Shown here piece after piece: positions 19,953-39,471 of a DNA stretch of 42,863 bases. Origin of the DNA: an uncultured bacterium (GTDB lineage Bacteria > Bacteroidota > Bacteroidia > Sphingobacteriales > Sphingobacteriaceae); NCBI GenBank assembly GCA_903838995.1, contig CAIMAP010000026.1, positions 1 through 42,863 of the forward strand, read 5' to 3'. The notes under the pieces were generated by a model. It saw only the letters and a program-made list of their open reading frames with translations, ran no database searches and had not been told where the DNA came from. Within the stretch, counting starts at the first letter, position 1. Each line of letters begins with the position of its first letter. Position numbers and translations under genes: made by a program.

Positions 19953-20564
19953 ATGGAAAATAACACCTTTCAACCATCTCCAAAAATGTTGACAAAACTA
20001 TTTGAATATGGTCAGCAAAAAAGTTTCAAAGAAGGTGAAGTTATTTTAAATGAAAACGCCTATATCAAATCTGTTCCGATAGTAATAAGTGGTAGCATGC
20101 GCGTGATGCGAACCGACGATGATGGCAGAGAATTATTATTGTATTATATTAAATCTGGCGAAAGTTGTATCATGTCTTTTTTAGGTGGCTTACACGATGA
20201 TACCAGCAAGGTAAAAGCTATTGCCGAAGAAGCAGCCGAAGTATTATTTGTTCCGGTTGATAAAGTTAGAGAAATGATCAAAGAATTTCCGGAATGGACC
20301 GAATATATTTTCAGATTATATCATAAAAAATTCGAAGAATTATTAGCGGTAATAAATGATGTTGCCTTTAAAAAAATGGACGAAAGATTACTGGATTTCT
20401 TAAAAAAGAAATGCGAGTTAAGTGGTGAAAAAACCATTCATATTACCCACGAACAAATTGCTATAGAACTAGGCTCCGCTAGGGTAGTGATTTCGAGGTT
20501 ATTAAAACACATGGAGGATTTAAACCTCATCGAACTGGGTAGAAATAAAATTACCCTTCTGTAA
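19953..20564 (+). CDS. Crp/Fnr-family transcriptional regulator
   Basis: N-terminal cNMP-binding-like domain (SGSMRVMRTDDDGRELLLYYIKSGESC), C-terminal HTH (ITHEQIAIELGSARVVISRLLKHME). Confidence 0.93.
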   Translation: MENNTFQPSPKMLTKLFEYGQQKSFKEGEVILNENAYIKSVPIVISGSMRVMRTDDDGRELLLYYIKSGESCIMSFLGGLHDDTSKVKAIAEEAAEVLFVPVDKVREMIKEFPEWTEYIFRLYHKKFEELLAVINDVAFKKMDERLLDFLKKKCELSGEKTIHITHEQIAIELGSARVVISRLLKHMEDLNLIELGRNKITLL

Positions 20565-20575
20565 CAAATGTTGCA
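20560..20575. promoter_or_regulatory. Putative Crp/Fnr-type operator TGTAACA-AA-TGTTGCA
   Basis: 7-bp arms, 6/7 complementary, overlapping the crp-like stop codon; centred about 43 bp before the predicted TSS. Confidence 0.55.
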
Positions 20576-20596
20576 ATATTCAGATTAAAGCATATT

Positions 20597-20604
20597 TAAC
20601 TTTG
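20597..20604 (+). promoter_or_regulatory. -7 box TAACTTTG for the DUF6132/rhodanese operon
   Basis: TAnnTTTG match, 21 bp before ATG at 20626. Confidence 0.55.
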
Positions 20605-20625
20605 TATAAGCAAAGCAACAAAAAC

Positions 20626-20817
20626 ATGCAGGTACTCAAGAAATATAAATTAGGCATTTTAGGCGCCGCATTTGGTGCCCTATTAGGTTTTCTATATTAC
20701 TATTTTATAGGATGTAGCACTGGCACTTGCGCCATTACTTCGAGTCCAACTAATAGTACAGCATATGGTGCCTTAATGGGCAGCCTTGCATTTAGCTCTT
20801 TAAAAAACGGAAAATGA
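20626..20817 (+). CDS. Small DUF6132-like membrane protein
   Basis: KLGILGAAFGALLGFLYYYFIGCSTGTCAITSSPTNSTAYGALMGSLAFS; ATG at 20626 preferred over TTG at 20602, which lies in the -7 box. Confidence 0.8.
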   Translation: MQVLKKYKLGILGAAFGALLGFLYYYFIGCSTGTCAITSSPTNSTAYGALMGSLAFSSLKNGK

Positions 20818-21083
20818 CAAACGAAAAAATTATTATCGCAAATTTAAAATGCAGTGGTTGTGCTGCTACAATTAATAAAGAATTAAGCGCAATTACTGGT
20901 GTAAGTGCAGTTAAGGTGGATGTTGATCACGATGAAATAGATATTACCTATGATCAAATAGAAAGAAAAGTAATCATCGATAAACTGCACAAACTCGGAT
21001 ACCCCGAAGCAACCGAAAAAAATGGTTTATTAATGCAATTGAAAAGTTATGGCAGTTGTATTGTTGGAAGAATGAGTAATTAA
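20814..21083 (+). CDS. Heavy-metal-associated (HMA) domain protein
   Basis: NLKCSGCAATINKELSAITGVSAVKVD; ATGA overlap with upstream gene. Confidence 0.88.
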   Translation: MTNEKIIIANLKCSGCAATINKELSAITGVSAVKVDVDHDEIDITYDQIERKVIIDKLHKLGYPEATEKNGLLMQLKSYGSCIVGRMSN

Positions 21084-21095
21084 ATTTTAATAAAT

Positions 21096-21380
21096 ATGAA
21101 CATAGAACAATTAATTTTAGCAAACGAAGGAACCATCGTAGATGTAAGAACTCCCGATGAATTTATGGGTGGATGTGTGCTTGGATCAGTTAATATTCCA
21201 TTACAAGAAATTGGATATAGAATGGAAGAATTACAAACCCTAGCCAAACCTCTAATTTTATGTTGCGCTTCTGGTGGCAGAAGCAGTGTAGCACATGCAA
21301 TGCTTTCGGCTCAAGGAGTTGATTGCCATAATGCTGGCTCTTGGTTAACGGTCAATCATATTCATTCTTTAAACCAATAA
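21096..21380 (+). CDS. Rhodanese-domain protein
   Basis: IVDVRTPDEFMGGCVLGSVNIPL...LILCCASGGRSSVA. Confidence 0.92.
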   Translation: MNIEQLILANEGTIVDVRTPDEFMGGCVLGSVNIPLQEIGYRMEELQTLAKPLILCCASGGRSSVAHAMLSAQGVDCHNAGSWLTVNHIHSLNQ

Positions 21381-21382
21381 TT

Positions 21383-21697
21383 ATGATCGAATTTATCAAG
21401 AAGATTTTAGGATTTGGACCATCGGTTAATTATAAAGAATTAATGGAAAATGGTGCAGTAATTATTGATGTAAGAACCAAAGGCGAATTTGCCGGAGGAC
21501 ACATTAAAGGATCTACCAATATTCCGGTAAATCAATTAGCTGCAAATTTAGGCAAATTTAAAAACAAAGAAAATACAATTATTACCTGTTGCGCATCGGG
21601 TGCAAGAAGTGGCGCTGCTAAAAGATTATTAATCTCTAGTGGTTATACAAATGTGCACAACGGCGGATCTTGGTATTCACTAAGAAATAAAATTTAA
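21383..21697 (+). CDS. Rhodanese-domain protein
   Basis: VIIDVRTKGEFAGGHIKGSTNIPV...TIITCCASGARSGAA; ATG at 21383 rather than the track start 21341. Confidence 0.92.
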   Translation: MIEFIKKILGFGPSVNYKELMENGAVIIDVRTKGEFAGGHIKGSTNIPVNQLAANLGKFKNKENTIITCCASGARSGAAKRLLISSGYTNVHNGGSWYSLRNKI

Positions 21698-21701
21698 AAT
21701 T

Positions 21702-22142
21702 ATGGACGCACATTTTTATGCAGTAAATGTAGAATGGATTGCAGATAAAAAAGGAATTTTAAGTTCTCCAGAATTAACCCAAAACGTGGAAGTTGCAACA
21801 CCTCCGCCCTTTCCAGGTGGGATAGAAAACACATGGTCGCCGGAGCATTTGTTTACTTCTGCAGTAGTAAGCTGTTTCATGACAACATTTTTGGCTGTTG
21901 CAAATAATTCAAAACTAAATTATAGTGAATTTAAATGCAATGCAAAAGGAAAGCTTGAACAAGTGGAGGGTAAATATTTAATGACAGAAGTGTTGTTAGA
22001 GGCTCATTTAACGATAGATAACGAAGAAAACAAAGAAAGAGCTATTCGTATATTAGAAAAATCGGAACAAGCATGTTTAATTTCGAATTCTATTAAATCT
22101 GCAGTAACTTTAACACCAATTATTAAAATTAGCAATGAGTAA
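21702..22142 (+). CDS. OsmC-family protein
   Basis: WSPEHLFTSAVVSCFMTTFLAVA and KSEQACLISNSIKSAV Cys motifs. Confidence 0.9.
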   Translation: MDAHFYAVNVEWIADKKGILSSPELTQNVEVATPPPFPGGIENTWSPEHLFTSAVVSCFMTTFLAVANNSKLNYSEFKCNAKGKLEQVEGKYLMTEVLLEAHLTIDNEENKERAIRILEKSEQACLISNSIKSAVTLTPIIKISNE

Positions 22143-22155
22143 AAAAATCGCATAA

Positions 22156-22863
22156 ATGAAAAAACTAAACATCGGAATTTTAGCACTATCGCTATTACTT
22201 TTTATCAACTGTAGCAATGGCCAAAATGCCAAAACAAATGTAGATGCCAATACATTTAATGAGCTTTTAAAAGCTACCCATCAAGCGCAATTAATAGATG
22301 TAAGAACGCCAGAAGAATTTGCAAAAGGACATTTAATTAATGCCCTTAACTTTGATTGGAATGGCAATGAATTCGATAAACAAGTAAGCAGTTTAAATAA
22401 AGAGGCAAATGTATTTGTGTACTGTTTAAGCGGAGGTAGAAGCGCCGGAGCTGCAGCACAACTTCGATCTGCTGGTTTTAAAAATGTAATTGAGCTAAAC
22501 GGCGGAATTATGAAATGGCGCGGTGCAAATCTACCAGAAACCACCGAGGCTACGATTCAAAATACCGGCATGAGTGTAGCAGATTTTCAGCATCTCACCC
22601 AATCAGATAAAATTGTTTTAGTAGATTTTTATGCAGATTGGTGTGCACCTTGTAAGAAAATGAAACCTTACCTTTTAGAAATTGAGAAAGAAATGAGCGC
22701 TGATGTTATTTTGGTAAGAATCAACGCAGACGATAACCAAGCGCTTTGTAAATCATTAAAAATAGATGCTTTACCCGTTTTGCAAGTTTATAAAGCTGGC
22801 CAATTAACATGGAATCAAATTGGATTTGTAGATAAGACAACTGTTTTAAAACAATTAAAATAA
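22156..22863 (+). CDS. Exported rhodanese-thioredoxin fusion, probable lipoprotein
   Basis: LLLFINCSNG lipobox-like; rhodanese loop VYCLSGGRSAGAA; thioredoxin VDFYADWCAPCKKMKP. Confidence 0.92.
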   Translation: MKKLNIGILALSLLLFINCSNGQNAKTNVDANTFNELLKATHQAQLIDVRTPEEFAKGHLINALNFDWNGNEFDKQVSSLNKEANVFVYCLSGGRSAGAAAQLRSAGFKNVIELNGGIMKWRGANLPETTEATIQNTGMSVADFQHLTQSDKIVLVDFYADWCAPCKKMKPYLLEIEKEMSADVILVRINADDNQALCKSLKIDALPVLQVYKAGQLTWNQIGFVDKTTVLKQLK

Positions 22864-28026: not shown

Positions 28027-29100
<1,074 letters not shown>

Positions 29101-29107
29101 ATTGGAA

Positions 29108-30304
29108 TTAGGAAAGTATAGCCGCAACACCTGGCAATACTTTTCCTTCCATATATTCTAACAATGCACCGCCACCGGTCGATACATAAGATACCTGATC
29201 GGATAAATTAAATTTAGCCACCGCTGCTGCAGAGTCTCCTCCTCCTATTAATGAAAAGGCACCCGCTTGTGTTGCTTTAACTACGGCTATTGCAACGGCT
29301 TTGGTTCCTGCTTCAAAATTACTCATTTCAAAAACACCCATCGGACCATTCCATAAAATAGTTTTTGATTGCGCTAAAATTTCTTCTATCACTTGAATAC
29401 TTTTTTCGCCAATATCTAATCCCATCCAACCATCTGGAATGGCATTGTTCATAGCCGTCGAAATATTTGCATCATTACTAAAGGCATCTGCAATAACAGA
29501 ATCTATGGGTAAACATAAATTCACGCCTTTATCTTTTGCTTGTTGAATTAAAGAAAGCGCCAAAGGAATTTTATCTTCTTCTACTAAAGACGATCCGATG
29601 TTTCCTCCCAATGCTTTGGCAAATGTATAAGCCATGCCTCCGCCAATAACTAAATGATCTACTCGGTCAATTAATTTTTCGATTAATAAAATTTTATCGG
29701 AAACTTTTGCACCACCCATAATGGCTGTGTATGGCTTAACGGCGGCGTGTAAAACTTTCTCGGCATTGGCTAGTTCACTAGCCATTACATAACCAAACAT
29801 TTTATTTTCAGAAAAAAATTGCGCAACAATAGTAGTAGATGCATGCGCACGGTGTGCAGTACCAAATGCATCATTCACATACACATCGCCTAATGCGGCT
29901 AATTTTTTAGCAAATTCGATATCGCCTTTTTCTTCTTCTTTATAAAACCTTAAATTTTCTAATAATAAAATTTCGCCAGCTTGTAAATGCCTCGCTAATT
30001 GATTCGCATTTTCTCCAATACAATCATCGGCAAATTTTACAGCAGCTTGGGTAATTTCGGCTAAGTGTTTTACTAAATGCACTAGCGAATATTTTGGCGT
30101 AGGACCTTCTTTTGGTCTACCTAAATGCGACATTAATACAATCGATCCGCCATCTTTTAAAATTTTCTGAATGGTTGGAATAGCAGCACGCATGCGCGTA
30201 TCATCGGTAATTTCAAAATCTGCATTAAGAGGAACATTAAAGTCGACACGAATTAATGCGCGCTTTTGATTAAAATTAAATTGATCGATTGTTGGAAATG
30301 ACAT
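29108..30304 (-). CDS. pgk: Phosphoglycerate kinase
   Basis: [48 protein letters not shown]. Confidence 0.97.
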
Positions 30305-30329
30305 AAATAAAAATTGAAAAAATTAAAAA

Positions 30330-31337
30330 TTAGTCGATTAACCTGATGCGTTCTACAACATCTGCCATTCGACTCGAGTAAGCCCATTCGTTATCGTACC
30401 ATCCTACTACTTTTACTAAACGCCCTACCACCGAGGTTAATTCGGAATCAAATACACAAGAATGTGTGTTTTCTTGAATATCAATAGAAACAATAGGATC
30501 AGAAGTATATTGTAAGATTCCTTTTAAACTATTTTGTGATGCATGTAAAAATGCTTCGTTGATTTGTGCAACGGTAACTTGCTTTTTTAAGATGCAGGTA
30601 AAATCTGTTAAAGATCCATTTGGCACCGGAACCCTAATACCTGCACCGCCTAACTTACCTGTTAAATGCGGGAAGATAGAAGTAATGGCTTTTGCTGCAC
30701 CAGTGCTGGTAGGTATCATCGATACCGCGGCAGCTCTTGCTCTTCTTAAATCGCGATGTGGTGCATCGTGTAAGTTTTGATCGCTGGTATAAGAATGTAC
30801 TGTTGTAATGTATCCATCTTCAATACCACCCAGCTCGTCTAATATTTTCACCATCGGTGCCACATTATTAGTGGTACAAGAAGCATTCGAAATTATTTTT
30901 GCATTCCAGTCTATCTGCGCATCGTTCACGCCTAAAACGATAGTAGGAATAAGTTTATCTGCTGCTGGTGCCGAAAGTATTACACGCGCAGCTCCAGCTT
31001 GTAAATGTTTAGCAGCTAATTCGCTTGTTAAAAATTTACCCGTCGATTCTATCACTACATGTACTGCTAATTCCTTCCAAGGCAGACTTTCTGGCTCTTT
31101 AAAGGCAAAACAAGGTATCACAAGTTCGTTGATACATAAATTATTGCCATCGGCCTTGATATCGGCTACTAAGCCCCTATGAATAGAGTCGTATTTTAAT
31201 AAATGAGCCAAAGTTGCGGCATCTGCCAAATCGTTAATAGCAACCACTTGGATGTGTGGATTTGCTAACAATCTTCTTAAGGTAATGCGGCCAATGCGGC
31301 CAAAACCATTAATTGCAACCCTTATGCTATTTTTCAT
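30330..31337 (-). CDS. Second GAPDH paralog (GapB/Gap2-like)
   Basis: [64 protein letters not shown]. Confidence 0.93.
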   Translation of the reverse strand: MKNSIRVAINGFGRIGRITLRRLLANPHIQVVAINDLADAATLAHLLKYDSIHRGLVADIKADGNNLCINELVIPCFAFKEPESLPWKELAVHVVIESTGKFLTSELAAKHLQAGAARVILSAPAADKLIPTIVLGVNDAQIDWNAKIISNASCTTNNVAPMVKILDELGGIEDGYITTVHSYTSDQNLHDAPHRDLRRARAAAVSMIPTSTGAAKAITSIFPHLTGKLGGAGIRVPVPNGSLTDFTCILKKQVTVAQINEAFLHASQNSLKGILQYTSDPIVSIDIQENTHSCVFDSELTSVVGRLVKVVGWYDNEWAYSSRMADVVERIRLID

Positions 31338-32918: not shown

Positions 32919-32952
32919 TGATATTAATCATATTAACAGGTGATTAATATCA
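32919..32952. promoter_or_regulatory. Two FNR-like boxes TGATATTAATCA and TGATTAATATCA
   Basis: TGAT-N4-ATCA cores at 32919-32930 and 32941-32952, mutual reverse complements, centres 22 bp apart. Confidence 0.65.
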
Positions 32953-33037
32953 TAACATCACGATTGTTACAGATGTAGTTTTATACTCGATAAAAGGAAT
33001 TCATTCTATTATCAATAAAACACAAATTCAAAACATT

Positions 33038-34366
33038 ATGAAAACAATGTCTCTAAAAGTAATAGCAGGGTCCTTGATAGGTGCTTCTGCTCTGATCATG
33101 ACCGGATGTGTGAGGGAAAACCAAATGTTGGATATCCCAAACAACAATCAATCAACAGAATTAATTTCTATGAAAACCACTACACAACCAGTCATTGATG
33201 GTGTAGTAGACCCTATTTGGGAAAATGCAACAAAATTAAGCACAACTACGCAAGTTCCTGATCCAGGAAATGGCTTGTTTTATGGTTACATCGGAAACCA
33301 ATATCCGGTTACTTTAAAATCAGTTTACGACGATACTTATATTTACTTTTTAGCTGAATATGCCGATGCTACTAAAAGTGTTCAAGTATCTCCTTGGTAC
33401 TTTAATCCAAGCACCCATTTGTGGGCACAAGAACCAAGTGCTAAAACTTTTGATGCGAATGGTAACATAACAAGAGATGGATGGGGAGAAGACAAGTTAG
33501 CCTTCTTATGGAACATCGATCATTCAACTACCAAATTTGCAGCACAAACTTGCTATGCAAGTTGTCACTTATTTTCTCCTTATTTAGACCCTACAACTAC
33601 CCCTGCAACAATGATTCCTAACCAAAGTGCGAACCATTATACCAATGGTGCCAATGAAAAAATTGACATGTGGTGGTTAAAAATTGGAAGAGATCCTATT
33701 TATGGTCAATTCTCAGATGAATACCAAGATTGGTCTGGTGGTTCATCAATTACTAGTTTAGTGGGTGGTAAAGGTAATGGTCGTCACCAAGATGATCAAG
33801 TGGTAAATGGCGCATCAACAACCTATCCTTTTGGCCCAACTTATTCTTCAAATGTTGGAGGAACTTCTAACAACACTCAAAAATTAAACATCACTGGTAA
33901 AACTCCTGCCCTTAGCGTGAGCGTACCAAAATACATCATCCCTAACAGAAATGATTACTACTATATTTTAGCCGATGAAGTTACTAATGGCGTTGCACAA
34001 CAAGTAATGGCGGTAGATTCATTCGGTGTATTAACATTAAAAGATGGTAGCACAATTGATCCAAATATTGGAACAGATTTCCAAAGAATTGGTGATGCAG
34101 TTTATGGTGGACATGGTGCAAAAATTATTCCTAGTTATGTATCTGCACCATTAACAAATGGCAGAGCAGACATCTCTTGTCAAGCAGTATATACAGGAAC
34201 TAGCTGGATTATTGAGTGGAAAAGATTATTGAAAACTGCTGATACTAAAAAACAAGATATTGATTTCTCTAGCTTAGAAGATCAACCATTTGGTGTGGCC
34301 ATTTTCAACAAATCAAATTACCAACATGGTATTAAACCAAATCTATTATTGAAGTTTCAAAAATAG
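33038..34366 (+). CDS. EB_dh-like heme-binding cytochrome lipoprotein
   Basis: Lipobox LIMTGC; PVIDGVVDPIWENATKL and DDTYIYFLAEYADATKS domain hallmarks; CYASCH (CXXCH) heme motif. Confidence 0.82.
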   Translation: MKTMSLKVIAGSLIGASALIMTGCVRENQMLDIPNNNQSTELISMKTTTQPVIDGVVDPIWENATKLSTTTQVPDPGNGLFYGYIGNQYPVTLKSVYDDTYIYFLAEYADATKSVQVSPWYFNPSTHLWAQEPSAKTFDANGNITRDGWGEDKLAFLWNIDHSTTKFAAQTCYASCHLFSPYLDPTTTPATMIPNQSANHYTNGANEKIDMWWLKIGRDPIYGQFSDEYQDWSGGSSITSLVGGKGNGRHQDDQVVNGASTTYPFGPTYSSNVGGTSNNTQKLNITGKTPALSVSVPKYIIPNRNDYYYILADEVTNGVAQQVMAVDSFGVLTLKDGSTIDPNIGTDFQRIGDAVYGGHGAKIIPSYVSAPLTNGRADISCQAVYTGTSWIIEWKRLLKTADTKKQDIDFSSLEDQPFGVAIFNKSNYQHGIKPNLLLKFQK

Positions 34367-34413
34367 TCTTGCTATTGAATAGCATCAGTTAAATGATTTA
34401 AAAAAATAAAATC

Positions 34414-34818
34414 ATGTCAATAAAAAAATTAACGATAGTATTAGCGGTTATAGCCGCCCCTATCATAGGCTTACAAAGTTGCTACGAAGTTGCTACAGTA
34501 ATGCCGGACAACGCAGGTTCGGAAGTAACTGGACCTGTTAGCTTCTCGAAAGATATTGTGCCCATTCTTAATGCAAATTGCAATGTAAGTGGCTGCCATT
34601 CATCGGGAGGAGTTAAACCAAATTTATCAGCAGATAACGCCTTTGGATCTTTAGACAATGGAGGTTATTTAGACAAAGGGAATGCTACAAATAGTTCGGT
34701 TTACTTATGGTTAACTGGCAAAAAAAGCACTACAATGCCTCCAAACGGACCTAACAACCCATCCAATATTAATCAATTAATGTTGGCTTGGATTAAACAA
34801 GGTGCTCAAAACAATTAA
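34414..34818 (+). CDS. Cytochrome c-like lipoprotein with CX4CH motif
   Basis: Lipobox GLQSC; FSKDIVPILNANCNVSGCHSSGG; distal TTMPPNGP Met-ligand region. Confidence 0.82.
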   Translation: MSIKKLTIVLAVIAAPIIGLQSCYEVATVMPDNAGSEVTGPVSFSKDIVPILNANCNVSGCHSSGGVKPNLSADNAFGSLDNGGYLDKGNATNSSVYLWLTGKKSTTMPPNGPNNPSNINQLMLAWIKQGAQNN

Positions 34819-34829
34819 ATAAAAAAAAG

Positions 34830-35732
34830 ATGAAAAATAGCTCGAAAAAATATGCAAAGTACCTTCAGGTTTTTGTACTAATCTTAGGCCTTGTTTTTAT
34901 AGGAAATAAATCCTGGGCACAAGATAATACCGAAGTAAAAGAGACCACGAAGCTTGAACCAATCAAGAAAACTTTTGCAGGCAATTTGATTATAGATAAT
35001 CAAACTGTAATGGTACCCGTAAAAGGTGTGTTTGAATTTGTTATTCAACATCGTTTCGGAGTTGTAAATAATGGCTACAAAGATTTCTTTGGACTTTATG
35101 CACCATCGAATATCAGACTAGGATTTAACTATACTCCAATTAATGATTTGCAGTTAGGATTTGGTTTTGCCAAAGAAAGGTTGCAATGGGATGTGAATTT
35201 AAAATATGCATTGATCAAACAATCTAAAGTTGGCGGAAACCCGGTAAGTATTACTTATTATGGTACTGCAGGCATAGACACTAGACCAAAAGCTGGAAAT
35301 TTTGTAAACAACACCGATCGTATTTCATTTTTCAATCAGTTAATTTTTGCAAGAAAAATGAGCAAAAAACTTTCTTTACAAATTGCGCCAAGTTTAACTT
35401 GGATGAATAATGTGGAAGGTTACATTAGTACAGATGGTAGTATTAAAGCAAAATCTAAAAACGCACATTTTGCAACTGCCTTTAGTGGAAGTTATGCGAT
35501 AGATGACAACTTCGCAATCATTGCAAATTACGATCAGCCATTTACACAACATCCAACAAATAACCCTTACCCTAATTTGAGCTTAGGTTTCCAAGTTGGA
35601 ACCGCTACCCATACTTTCCAAATGTTTGTTGGAAACTATCAAAGCATCGTGCCTCAATCAAATAATTTTTATAATAAAAATGATTATAGAGACGGTAAGT
35701 TTGTAATTGGATTTAACATTACTAAACGATAA
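34830..35732 (+). CDS. DUF5777-like outer-membrane beta-barrel protein
   Basis: Signal peptide; amphipathic strands; FVIQHRFGVVNNGYKDFFGLYAPSNIRLGFNYTPINDLQLGFGFAKE. Confidence 0.8.
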   Translation: MKNSSKKYAKYLQVFVLILGLVFIGNKSWAQDNTEVKETTKLEPIKKTFAGNLIIDNQTVMVPVKGVFEFVIQHRFGVVNNGYKDFFGLYAPSNIRLGFNYTPINDLQLGFGFAKERLQWDVNLKYALIKQSKVGGNPVSITYYGTAGIDTRPKAGNFVNNTDRISFFNQLIFARKMSKKLSLQIAPSLTWMNNVEGYISTDGSIKAKSKNAHFATAFSGSYAIDDNFAIIANYDQPFTQHPTNNPYPNLSLGFQVGTATHTFQMFVGNYQSIVPQSNNFYNKNDYRDGKFVIGFNITKR

Positions 35733-35737
35733 TATTT

Positions 35738-35787
35738 AATGAGCCCGATAAAGCTATAAGCTAGCGTTATTGGGCTCATTTTATTTA
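35738..35787 (+). terminator. Long hairpin AATGAGCCC...GGGCTCATT + T-rich tract inside the electron-transfer locus
   Basis: 9-bp exact arms at 35738-35746 and 35772-35780. Confidence 0.7.
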
Positions 35788-35799
35788 AAGCAAAAAACT

Positions 35800-36735
35800 A
35801 TGTCGAATAACAAAGAGGATTTAGAAAAAAAACAAGACAACGATGCTGGAAGAAGAGAATTTATTCGACTCGGCGTACTTGCAGCAGGACTAACCATTGC
35901 AGGTGGAGGCTTACAAAAAGTTTTTTCATCAGAGCCAAGCGAATCTGGTGAAAAAATAAATGTATTAACGCCAGATGGCAAAGTTGTTTCTGTTGATGCA
36001 TCTCATATGAAAGCGGCAGAAAATTGTTGTGCTGCTCCTTCATCAGAAGCAAGACAAGGAATTCCAGGAAAAAAATATGTGATGGTAATTGATCTTTCGC
36101 GATGTAAGGATGCGATGAAATGTCAGCATGCTTGCCAGAAACATCACCTATTACCTTCAAAAGATAAATACTTAAAAGTTTATAAAATGCAAGATTCGCC
36201 AGAAGCATCACCTTATTGGATGCCTAAGCCCTGCTTGCATTGCGACAAACCTCCTTGCGTAAAAGTTTGCCCAGTAGATGCCACCTTTAAAAGAAGTGAT
36301 GGTTTGGTTTTGATTGATAATGAAAGATGTATTGGTTGTCGTTTTTGTATGGCAGCTTGTCCTTATTCTACCAGAACATTTAATTGGGATGAACCTATTC
36401 AACCCGAAAATTATATGGACCTAAAATATTCACCGGAGTCGAGCACGCCAAGAAAAAAAGGAACCGTCGAAAAATGTGATTTCTGTCCGGATATGTTGAA
36501 ACAAGGTAAGTTGCCGCATTGTGTTTCGGCTTGCCCAAATGGAGTATATTATTTTGGCGATGCCAACGAAGACACGGTTTGTAATGGTGATGAAACTGTT
36601 CGATTTAGACAATTATTAAAAGACAAAGCGGGTTACAGGTATTTAGAAAGTTTAGGAACAGAACCCAGCGTTTACTATTTACCTGCTGTAAATCGTTTGT
36701 TTCCATTCGAAGAAAATAATACTAATCCATCTTAG
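35800..36735 (+). CDS. Tat-exported 4Fe-4S ferredoxin-like subunit (NrfC/HybA-like)
   Basis: RREFIRLGVLAAGLTIAGG; CLHCDKPPCVKVCP, CIGCRFCMAACP, CDFCPDMLKQGKLPHCVSACP; ATG at 35800 rather than 35770. Confidence 0.9.
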   Translation: MSNNKEDLEKKQDNDAGRREFIRLGVLAAGLTIAGGGLQKVFSSEPSESGEKINVLTPDGKVVSVDASHMKAAENCCAAPSSEARQGIPGKKYVMVIDLSRCKDAMKCQHACQKHHLLPSKDKYLKVYKMQDSPEASPYWMPKPCLHCDKPPCVKVCPVDATFKRSDGLVLIDNERCIGCRFCMAACPYSTRTFNWDEPIQPENYMDLKYSPESSTPRKKGTVEKCDFCPDMLKQGKLPHCVSACPNGVYYFGDANEDTVCNGDETVRFRQLLKDKAGYRYLESLGTEPSVYYLPAVNRLFPFEENNTNPS

Positions 36736-36737
36736 GT

Positions 36738-38105
36738 ATGAAAGATTTAATTAAACCAGCAAACGAACAAGAAGCAATTCAAATGCTTCATCGTTATAAC
36801 GAAGATGTTTTACCTCAAAAATTTGGTAAAGCCGGAAAAACTTGGGTGGTAATCTTATTAGTCATCATTGCCTTTGGTGTGTATAATTATATTCAACAAA
36901 TTAGATTTGGTTTGTCTGTTACAGGCCTTAGCGACACCGTATCTTGGGGAATTTACATTTCCAACTTTGTGTTTTTTGTTGCCGTAAGTTTGGTAGGCTC
37001 ATTAATTACTGCAGTGCTTTATTTGCTAAATGTAAAATGGCGCGCACCACTTACCAGAATTTCAGAAGTTATTGCGGTATCTGCTATTATGTTTGCAGGA
37101 CTCATCATCATTGTGGATATGGGCCGACCCGATAGGGTATTAAATATGTTTATGTATGGCAGAATACAATCGCCCATTGTTTGGGATGTAATTGTAGTCA
37201 TGACTTATATGACAATTAGTTTTTTATTGCTCTACTTTCCATTACTACCAAGTATTGCCTATTGCAGAGATTTTATGAAAAACATTCCAAAATGGCAACA
37301 TAAAATGTATCGCATTTTATCGCTTGGATGGAAAAACAGACCCGCACAATATAAAGTAGTAGAAAAAGCAATTACCATTTTATCGGTCATGATTATTCCG
37401 GTAGCGCTCAGCATTCACACCGTTACCTCTTGGTTATTTGCCACTACTTACCGTCCTGGATGGGATAGTACAAACTTTGGTGCCTACTTTGTTGCAGGCG
37501 CATTTATGGTTGGTGCAGCTGCTGTAATTGCAGCGATGTTTATTTTACGTAAATTCTATTTGAGATACGACGAATATTTTACCGATATACATTTTGACAG
37601 AATGGGCAGGTTATTGGTTTTGCTTTCTTTTATTTATTTATATTTTACCGTAAACGAATATTTTATTCCGGGTTATAAAATGAAAGGCGAAGAAGCCGCA
37701 CATTTAAGAGAATTATTTACCGGAATTTATGCCCCAATGTTTTGGTCTGTTCAAATATTAGGAATGATAGTACCGATCATTGTATTACTATTCAAAAAAG
37801 GCAGAAAACCAATACCTATTTTTATTATGTCTGTTTTAGTAATTATTGGTGCCTGGTTTAAAAGGTATTTGATAGTTATACCTACTATGTTACACCCATT
37901 TTTACCACTTCAACAAATAGCAGAATCGGCTAAACATTATTCGCCAACCCTAGCCGAATGGTCTATCACTTCTGCTTCTCTGGCGGGGGCCTTACTTTTG
38001 ATTACCCTTTTTGTAAGGTATTTTCCTATTATTTCTATTTGGGAATTAGCAGAAGAAAGAGACATTCCACATCATACTATTTACGAGCATTTAAATGACG
38101 AATAA
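36738..38105 (+). CDS. nrfD: NrfD/PsrC/HybB-family quinone-interacting membrane subunit
   Basis: About 10 TM segments; SWGIYISNFVFFVAVSLVGSLITAVLYLL; PDRVLNMF; follows Fe-S subunit. Confidence 0.9.
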   Translation: MKDLIKPANEQEAIQMLHRYNEDVLPQKFGKAGKTWVVILLVIIAFGVYNYIQQIRFGLSVTGLSDTVSWGIYISNFVFFVAVSLVGSLITAVLYLLNVKWRAPLTRISEVIAVSAIMFAGLIIIVDMGRPDRVLNMFMYGRIQSPIVWDVIVVMTYMTISFLLLYFPLLPSIAYCRDFMKNIPKWQHKMYRILSLGWKNRPAQYKVVEKAITILSVMIIPVALSIHTVTSWLFATTYRPGWDSTNFGAYFVAGAFMVGAAAVIAAMFILRKFYLRYDEYFTDIHFDRMGRLLVLLSFIYLYFTVNEYFIPGYKMKGEEAAHLRELFTGIYAPMFWSVQILGMIVPIIVLLFKKGRKPIPIFIMSVLVIIGAWFKRYLIVIPTMLHPFLPLQQIAESAKHYSPTLAEWSITSASLAGALLLITLFVRYFPIISIWELAEERDIPHHTIYEHLNDE

Positions 38106-39037
38106 TGAAAAAGCTAATTCAAAATTTATCAAGTAAAATCACCTTAATTGTACTATTTTTTTTAATTGTTAGCTCCTTCCAGTTTAGTTATGCGCAAAAT
38201 GCTATCGAAAAAGAAAATGCTTCTATAAACCTGAGCTATAAAATTAGCAATGGAATAAAGAGTATCAAAGCAATCGTAGAAAGAAAAATAAATGGCAAGT
38301 ATTTTGGAGTAGAAAATTTAAAATTAAATTTATACTTAACAGCGGTTAAAGCATACGATGCTACAAATGCAGAGGGTTTATTAGCAACTCTTTCTACAAA
38401 TGCAGATGGCGAAGTAAATTTTAATTTTAGTCCAGCATTCTACAAAGCGACTGCCAACAAGCATGATTTTAATTTTATTGTAAACTCAGTAGAGAATCCA
38501 TTGTTCGAAGATCTTTCAGCAGAAATTATTTTAAATGATTATGCCCTTGATTTGAAAATAGCTGCTGTAGATACCATTTCTAGTGCTACTGCTAAAATTA
38601 GTAAATATGAAAATGAAGTATTAATTCCTGCTGCAGAAATTGAATTAAAATTAGCAATCAAGAAAACCTTTGGGCTATTACCTTTTGGTGAAGAGGGTAC
38701 GGTAACCGACGAAAACGGAGAAGTTATGGCAGACATTCCTGCTGATGTTCCTGGTAATGCCAATCATACTATTACTATTGTGGCAAGATTTATAGATGAA
38801 GAAAATGCTGGGGTAATTGAAGTAAGCAAAGATACCCCATGGAAGATTCTTCCCAAAGCAAATGCCATACCAGAAAGAACTTTATGGTCTACAGGACACA
38901 ACGCCCCTATTCCTTTGGTTATCGTTACGATAAGTCTAATTGCTTTTATATGGGGCATTATTATTTACCTCGTTTCTTTATTAATAAAAATTAAAAAATT
39001 AGGCAATAAAAAAAATAATTCAAAACAATTAAATTAA
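38105..39037 (+). CDS. Exported hypothetical protein with C-terminal TM anchor
   Basis: Signal peptide ...SYAQ; beta-rich ectodomain; TM IPLVIVTISLIAFIWGIIIYLVSLL; stop/start overlap with nrfD. Confidence 0.75.
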   Translation: MKKLIQNLSSKITLIVLFFLIVSSFQFSYAQNAIEKENASINLSYKISNGIKSIKAIVERKINGKYFGVENLKLNLYLTAVKAYDATNAEGLLATLSTNADGEVNFNFSPAFYKATANKHDFNFIVNSVENPLFEDLSAEIILNDYALDLKIAAVDTISSATAKISKYENEVLIPAAEIELKLAIKKTFGLLPFGEEGTVTDENGEVMADIPADVPGNANHTITIVARFIDEENAGVIEVSKDTPWKILPKANAIPERTLWSTGHNAPIPLVIVTISLIAFIWGIIIYLVSLLIKIKKLGNKKNNSKQLN

Positions 39038-39042
39038 TAATT

Positions 39043-39471
39043 ATGAAAACTACTTCAAAAAGAAAATTTATTTCCGCATTTTTTATCGTGCTATTTTTAG
39101 CTTGGGTTAATTTAGCATTTACAGCTACAACACCCGACGAAGCTAAGCCATGGAATGCACCAGAAACTGCAAAAAAAATTAAAAACCCTTTAAAAGGTGA
39201 TGCCGCTGCTTTAGCAGATGGCAAAACACTTTTCATGAAGCATTGCAAATCTTGCCATGGTGCAAAAGGTTTGGGAGATGGTCCAAAATCTAAAGAACTA
39301 GATACTGAATGTGGAGATTTTAGCCAAAAATCGTTTCAATCTCAAACAGATGGAGAAATTATTTATAAAATAAAAGAGGGTAGAGATGACATGCCCTCTT
39401 TTAAAAAGAAAATTACAGATCAAGATGAATTATGGAGTATCATCAATTATGTGCGTTCATTAGCTAAATAA
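39043..39471 (+). CDS. Monoheme cytochrome c
   Basis: GKTLFMKHCKSCHGAKGLGDGPKS; DMPSFKKKITDQDELWSIINYVRSL. Confidence 0.92.
   Translation: MKTTSKRKFISAFFIVLFLAWVNLAFTATTPDEAKPWNAPETAKKIKNPLKGDAAALADGKTLFMKHCKSCHGAKGLGDGPKSKELDTECGDFSQKSFQSQTDGEIIYKIKEGRDDMPSFKKKITDQDELWSIINYVRSLAK

Follow-up and report, generated by a model that had tools for sequence, protein, structure and literature searches.

Proteins of the NrfD family exchange electrons with quinones. In the alternative complex III (ACIII), a quinol:cytochrome c oxidoreductase, the quinol pocket of the NrfD-type subunit ActC is located 10-12 Å away from one Fe-S cluster in ActB; it holds the residues His139, Asp169 and Asp253 (PMC5928083). 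All quinone-reactive NrfD proteins have a serine at the entry of the pocket and an acidic, histidine or serine residue in transmembrane helix 2 (TMH2), features that are missing in ActF, and the table of a 2021 survey on complexes with NrfD-like proteins comprises about a dozen types (PMC8076601). We have analyzed a related locus on contig CAIMAP010000026.1 from an uncultured member of the Sphingobacteriaceae (assembly GCA_903838995.1), whose entire 42,863 nucleotides are referred to as the window. In the list of open reading frames (ORFs) of the window, seven consecutive genes on the plus strand, P1 to P7, span positions 33038-39471, and they make up two modules: a set of heme lipoproteins and a DUF5777 barrel (P1-P3, 33038-35732), and a quartet consisting of an Fe-S protein, an NrfD-family membrane protein, an exported anchored protein and a cytochrome c (P4-P7, 35800-39471). 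The quartet is a real, conserved electron-transfer module of the NrfD/ACIII kind that involves no new principle and is apparently undescribed; none of the types in the table of the survey has its composition (PMC8076601). The reading that we favor, if with some reservation, is that P4-P7 form a menaquinol:cytochrome c oxidoreductase of the NrfD superfamily that has four subunits, faces the periplasm, is induced at low oxygen and feeds the periplasmic acceptors of its host. The same seven genes had been listed in a first-pass annotation made from the bare sequence, and for all of them an ORF was found, with Pfam families and motifs in agreement.

Within the quartet the genes are tightly spaced, with intergenic distances of 2, -1 and 5 bp. 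P5 (36738-38105, plus strand, as are all seven genes; Pfam NrfD, 1.1e-34) has about ten transmembrane (TM) helices, and its only sequence relatives in the PDB are four ActC sequences of ACIII, to which it aligns nearly end to end with an identity of about 35%, forming a clade of its own apart from ActC. In this alignment S145, D127 and D150 of P5 take the positions of Ser164, His139 and Asp169, and all three are invariant in 11 homologues. P5 thus combines an NrfD fold, a serine at the pocket entry (S145), an acidic residue in TMH2 (D127) and an Fe-S partner, P4, as found in the quinone-reactive NrfD superfamily, and because the three residues match quinone-site positions we infer that it is quinone-reactive. 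P4 (35800-36735) carries Fer4/4Fe-4S Pfam families, four cluster motifs and the RREF signal of the twin-arginine translocation (Tat) pathway, which places its redox side in the periplasm; its start is most likely the ATG at 35800 rather than the TTG at 35770. The first cluster motif, C-x5-C-x3-C, has only three cysteines across the aligned homologues, so that this cluster may be of the 3Fe-4S type or use another ligand. As the ActB motif that misses a cysteine is a different one, CIGTRYC, P4 does not simply correspond to a shortened ActB. P6 (38105-39037) has a signal peptide and a single C-terminal TM helix and yielded no family match in Pfam or among curated family profiles. Its model (pLDDT 79) contains an Ig-like beta-sandwich region next to the TM helix, for which Foldseek returned generic Ig-like domains only, with low TM-score, and a profile search against PDB sequences gave no credible match. 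P7 (39043-39471; Pfam Cytochrom_C, 4.5e-12; heme motif CKSCH) is a Sec-exported monoheme cytochrome c and the obvious electron exit of the quartet.

Orthologues of P5 with more than 50% identity were found in 7 of 297 sampled Bacteroidota genomes, including the one studied here, and are clearly separated from the ActC-type matches of about 35% that occur in most genomes and from one match of 41%. A profile of P6 matches the same 7 genomes among the 297 and none besides, and nothing else indicates as strongly as this identical distribution that the four proteins of the quartet function as a unit. A contig scan for P5 added 12 further loci, all from Bacteroidota and by their titles mostly from uncultured aquatic organisms. 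Fe-S protein, NrfD protein, P6 and cytochrome c are kept together across these divergent loci, with partial exceptions in L052 and L037. The neighborhood is therefore conserved and not scattered, and the first-pass view of a respiratory electron-transfer locus that lacks a catalytic subunit of its own and has an Fe-S/NrfD pair linked to cytochromes at its core holds up well; in line with it, no molybdoenzyme, NrfA or hydrogenase gene is seen among the ORFs of the window. Two loci, L039 (8915-16089) and L049 (5149-12951), contain tandem copies of the quartet, two per locus and 50-70% alike, hinting at specialised versions. In L040 (2695-11483) a more distant NrfD relative of about 40% identity has a molybdopterin oxidoreductase and multiheme cytochromes as neighbors, and probably belongs to a separate respiratory complex. 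In several carriers a small RR-containing protein of about 85-100 amino acids, encoded just before P4 or nearby (L034, 10966-11259; L036, 7639-7902; L047, 540-794, and others), contains once more the stretch LTxDGKLVEVD that P4 has in its N-terminal part; this small protein is missing in the window.

In the first-pass annotation all seven genes were taken as one trans-envelope unit, and on this point our analysis departs from it. The gap of 67 bp between P3 and P4 contains a strong terminator-like hairpin on the plus strand (35738-35780; -24.8 kcal/mol, z -5.95) that is followed by UUUUAUUU, so that P1-P7 are probably split into two transcription segments. Furthermore, DUF5777 is present in 82 of 198 sampled Bacteroidota genomes (about 40%) but NrfD proteins of the P5 type in only about 2%, and the two gene sets are thus separable. 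As they distribute independently, a single trans-envelope complex was dropped as the principal interpretation.

ACIII is among the closest of the described systems. Besides the full-length relationship of P5 to ActC, the quartet shares with it an Fe-S partner, the periplasmic orientation and a monoheme cytochrome c, P7 being of the same type as ActE with no orthology implied. There are differences as well: the pentaheme ActA, the molybdopterin-like half of ActB, ActD and ActF are found neither in the locus nor in the conserved neighborhoods, P6 is unique to the quartet, and P5, in its separate clade, has a leucine in place of Asp253 of ActC. The best curated matches of P4 and P5 are DsrO, DsrP, QrcC and QrcD, which make up Fe-S/NrfD pairs in sulfate reducers, but their scores remain below the respective cut-offs (187.7 of 200, 145.9 of 350, 145 of 400 and 63 of 570 bits), and none of the partner genes of the DsrMKJOP or QrcABCD complexes is present in the locus. 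With subunits missing or scores below cut-off, assignment to ACIII, Dsr or Qrc was rejected. Nrf-, Psr- or Ttr-type reductases differ by their catalytic subunit, for which neither this locus nor most carrier loci have a gene, Nap adjoining the quartet in L052 only. The first-pass statement that the locus is not a standard Psr, Nrf, Ttr or Hyb complex is supported.

In the mechanism that we propose, P5 would oxidise quinol near the periplasmic face, at a site comprising S145 and D127, P4 would wire the electrons through its Fe-S clusters, P6 would anchor or scaffold the periplasmic part of the complex, and P7 would release electrons to whatever periplasmic acceptors the host has, these being interchangeable. 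An FNR-type regulator would induce the quartet at low oxygen. In most carriers P7 would additionally feed the neighboring P2 and P1, or a YceI substitute of the latter, which would share the outer membrane with the DUF5777 barrel. The common genome set of P5 and P6, the end-to-end alignment with ActC, the Tat signal and the FNR-type sites described below all argue for such an oxidoreductase, while several observations weigh against it. The locus has no counterpart of the multiheme ActA, which in ACIII connects the Fe-S clusters with ActE, leaving the step from P4 to P7 without explanation. Moreover, L233 of P5 occupies the position of Asp253 in the quinol site of ActC, and in L052 the Fe-S protein, the NrfD protein and a longer cytochrome are present with no recognised P6. 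Finally, the genome also carries ACIII-type genes, so that it is not obvious why another complex of this kind would be required. Note that the single molybdopterin-type match in the whole genome, on contig C166, is read as ActB of this ACIII, because an ActC-like match lies just downstream.

Upstream of P1 we find two candidate FNR-type sites of the pattern TGAT-N4-ATCA, not assigned to a strand, one at 32919-32930 (TGATATTAATCA) and one 22 bp downstream at 32941-32952 (TGATTAATATCA); the interval of the first-pass annotation started at 32919, the first base of the first site. This pattern, chosen after the two sites in the window were seen, has 12 matches across 39 upstream regions, each 300 bp long, 10 of these matches being in other genomes, as compared to 0.34 expected from simulated sequence. 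The other regulator motifs TGAY-N6-RTCA and TAAC-N5-GTTA gave no matches in the upstream regions. Crp-family genes adjoin the locus in L043 and L045, and low-oxygen induction by an FNR-type regulator would fit these genes and the candidate sites. The window itself contains a Crp/Fnr-family regulator gene at 19953, followed by rhodanese-like and OsmC-like genes (19953-22863), and its product is a candidate regulator for the sites.

With respect to the acceptor, the nitrous oxide reductase NosZ is enriched among carriers of the quartet, with matches in 18 of 21 carrier genomes compared to 94 of the 290 sampled genomes that are not carriers (Fisher 1.8e-6), and within the family in 5/5 carriers as against 17/55 others when the genome studied here is left out, P values and counts both ignoring relatedness. 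This raises the possibility that the quartet is a menaquinol dehydrogenase dedicated to clade II NosZ in a subset of Bacteroidota. NirK is found in 5/22 only, too weak a link to retain, so that the association with NosZ is not one with denitrification as a whole, and, likewise in favor of this reading, the inspected NosZ clusters contain cytochromes but no quartet gene. However, the genome studied here, which is 99.4% complete, gave no NosZ match, and two other carriers lack one as well. Three of four genus-mates have NosZ but no quartet, and NosZ clusters look alike in genomes with and without it. NosZ is therefore likely a frequent client and not a dedicated partner, and we consider the exclusive arrangement improbable. 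A replacement test, in which NosZ clusters of carriers were inspected for another donor being missing there, revealed no difference, and a literature search on NrfD in connection with nosZ found nothing relevant. In L052 (2959-11554), from a member of the Marinifilaceae, quartet-type Fe-S and NrfD proteins and a longer cytochrome are directly followed by NapA, NapG, NapH and NapB. Together with the presence of NosZ elsewhere in most carriers, this neighbor fits an output to periplasmic reductases, and neither of the two is a catalytic subunit that always accompanies the quartet. Near the quartet in L037 (14161-15907, genome G146) a small cytochrome c and a COX1-family protein with a weak ccoN score are encoded; the latter is suspected, not proved, to be the large subunit of an NO reductase.

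The second module deserves separate consideration. P1 (33038-34366; Pfam EB_dh, 5.9e-21) is an EB_dh-family lipoprotein with the lipobox LIMTGC and a CX3CH heme-binding motif, CYASCH, whose residues C172, C176 and H177 are invariant in 9 homologues. A single-sequence search of the PDB gave no credible match, but a P1 profile matches NxrC (3.3e-9), and on the basis of the invariant motif and this match P1 likely binds heme. It shares the EB_dh family with NxrC and EbdC and differs from them as a stand-alone lipoprotein with CX3CH and no Mo partner in the locus. Different genes come first in this set among the loci: in some, as in the window, one for an EB_dh lipoprotein, in others one for a paralogue that has an additional CXXCH, or for YceI. 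P2 (34414-34818), without a Pfam family match, is a monoheme cytochrome-like lipoprotein with a lipobox, in which the CX4CH motif (CNVSGCH) and Met108 as the likely axial ligand were read from an alignment of 15 homologues. P3 (34830-35732; Pfam DUF5777, 3.9e-69) was modelled with AlphaFold2 from nine sequences as an outer-membrane beta-barrel of about 12 strands with modest confidence (pLDDT 65, pTM 0.68) that appears porin-like in Foldseek; a DUF5777 profile found no credible match among PDB sequences, and in the literature searched we found no paper naming DUF5777. By hand count, 24 of the 30 best loci encode a P2-like heme lipoprotein at most about 1.5 kb away from DUF5777, often with YceI, and the neighbors of DUF5777 are mostly redox proteins, sometimes of the Rieske or plastocyanin type (such periplasmic proteins and YceI are found in L059, 776-1351; L065, 2351-2938; L055, 2347-2781; and L058, 2421-2867). 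In L103 (6072-7337, minus strand, genome G030) a single ORF of 421 amino acids fuses a P2-type cytochrome (CAQAGCH; 35.6 bits with the P2 profile) to DUF5777. This fusion makes it likely that barrel and cytochrome form a physical pair, and together with the neighborhoods it suggests that the barrel is associated with redox proteins of the periplasm whether the quartet is present or not. A second DUF5777 gene of the genome studied here (L087, 3695-5356, contig C214) is preceded by two P2-like lipoproteins and has no quartet nearby.

These proteins might extend the quartet to one trans-envelope path from P5 through P4, P7 and P1/P2 to an extracellular acceptor, with the DUF5777 barrel as a conduit or as a plugged barrel resembling Cyc2. 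By hand count of neighborhoods, the quartet does have P2-P3 next to it in 16 of the 20 informative loci, two of the four exceptions having a contig end downstream, and the natural fusion and the redox neighbors of DUF5777 point in the same direction. MtrAB-type conduits combine a barrel of 26 strands with a decaheme protein, while Cyc2, with 16 strands and one heme, is a precedent for a porin that works with a single heme (PMC8406198). Since P3 was modelled with only about 12 strands, it is unlikely to enclose a heme wire, and no multiheme cytochrome but only monoheme proteins are encoded in the locus. In addition, most DUF5777 genes occur without the quartet, the hairpin separates the two gene sets, and nothing points to an extracellular acceptor; such a path is thus rather unlikely. 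The locus resembles MtrCAB in that barrel and cytochromes are encoded together, and differs in its monoheme proteins and a barrel that is much smaller in the model (PMC8406198). It resembles Cyc2 in combining one heme with an outer-membrane barrel, fused in one relative, but here two genes are the rule, the barrel is of the DUF5777 kind instead of an OprO/P-like one with 16 strands (PMC8406198), and P2 has CX4CH in place of CXXCH. A cytochrome plug at the periplasmic mouth of P3, made plausible by the fusion, is possible, as is electron delivery to the outer membrane via the cytochrome/barrel pair. Of the porin-cytochrome-like arrangement proposed at first pass, the pairing of barrel and cytochrome hence likely survives, and the classical conduit is weakened. 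As a speculation that we hold to be doubtful, the quartet and P2-P3 might by themselves suffice, as a minimal pathway, to carry electrons from quinol all the way to the outer membrane, ending in a small porin that is plugged by a cytochrome like Cyc2 but split into two proteins, where a soluble acceptor would enter the DUF5777 pore and be reduced by the monoheme lipoprotein.

Reverse flow in the manner of Qrc, a cytochrome c:menaquinone oxidoreductase by which a donor in the periplasm or at the outer membrane would deliver electrons to the quinone pool, is suggested by the sub-threshold matches to QrcC and QrcD and by an aspartate that P5 has in common with QrcD where ActC has histidine (PMC8076601), but it is very unlikely, as no donor dehydrogenase was recognised beside the annotated loci and the FNR-type sites and the Nap neighbor fit electron output. 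Elsewhere in the window, at 28045-31337, a phosphoglycerate kinase-like gene is flanked by two glyceraldehyde-3-phosphate dehydrogenase-like genes on opposite strands, as read from the translations.

If our interpretation of the quartet as a menaquinol:cytochrome c oxidoreductase is right, a small ACIII-like quinol-oxidising module that is recognisable by a marker protein of its own, P6, joins the known types. It would be a way in which periplasmic reductases of some Bacteroidota may be supplied with electrons when oxygen is low, and N2O reduction, which acts as a greenhouse-gas sink, would gain testable candidates for its electron supply. DUF5777 gains a first functional lead as a partner of periplasmic redox proteins. 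Should the split, cytochrome-plugged porin prove true, it would stand for a class of redox gates at the outer membrane that is new, with a barrel part that is widespread in Bacteroidota.

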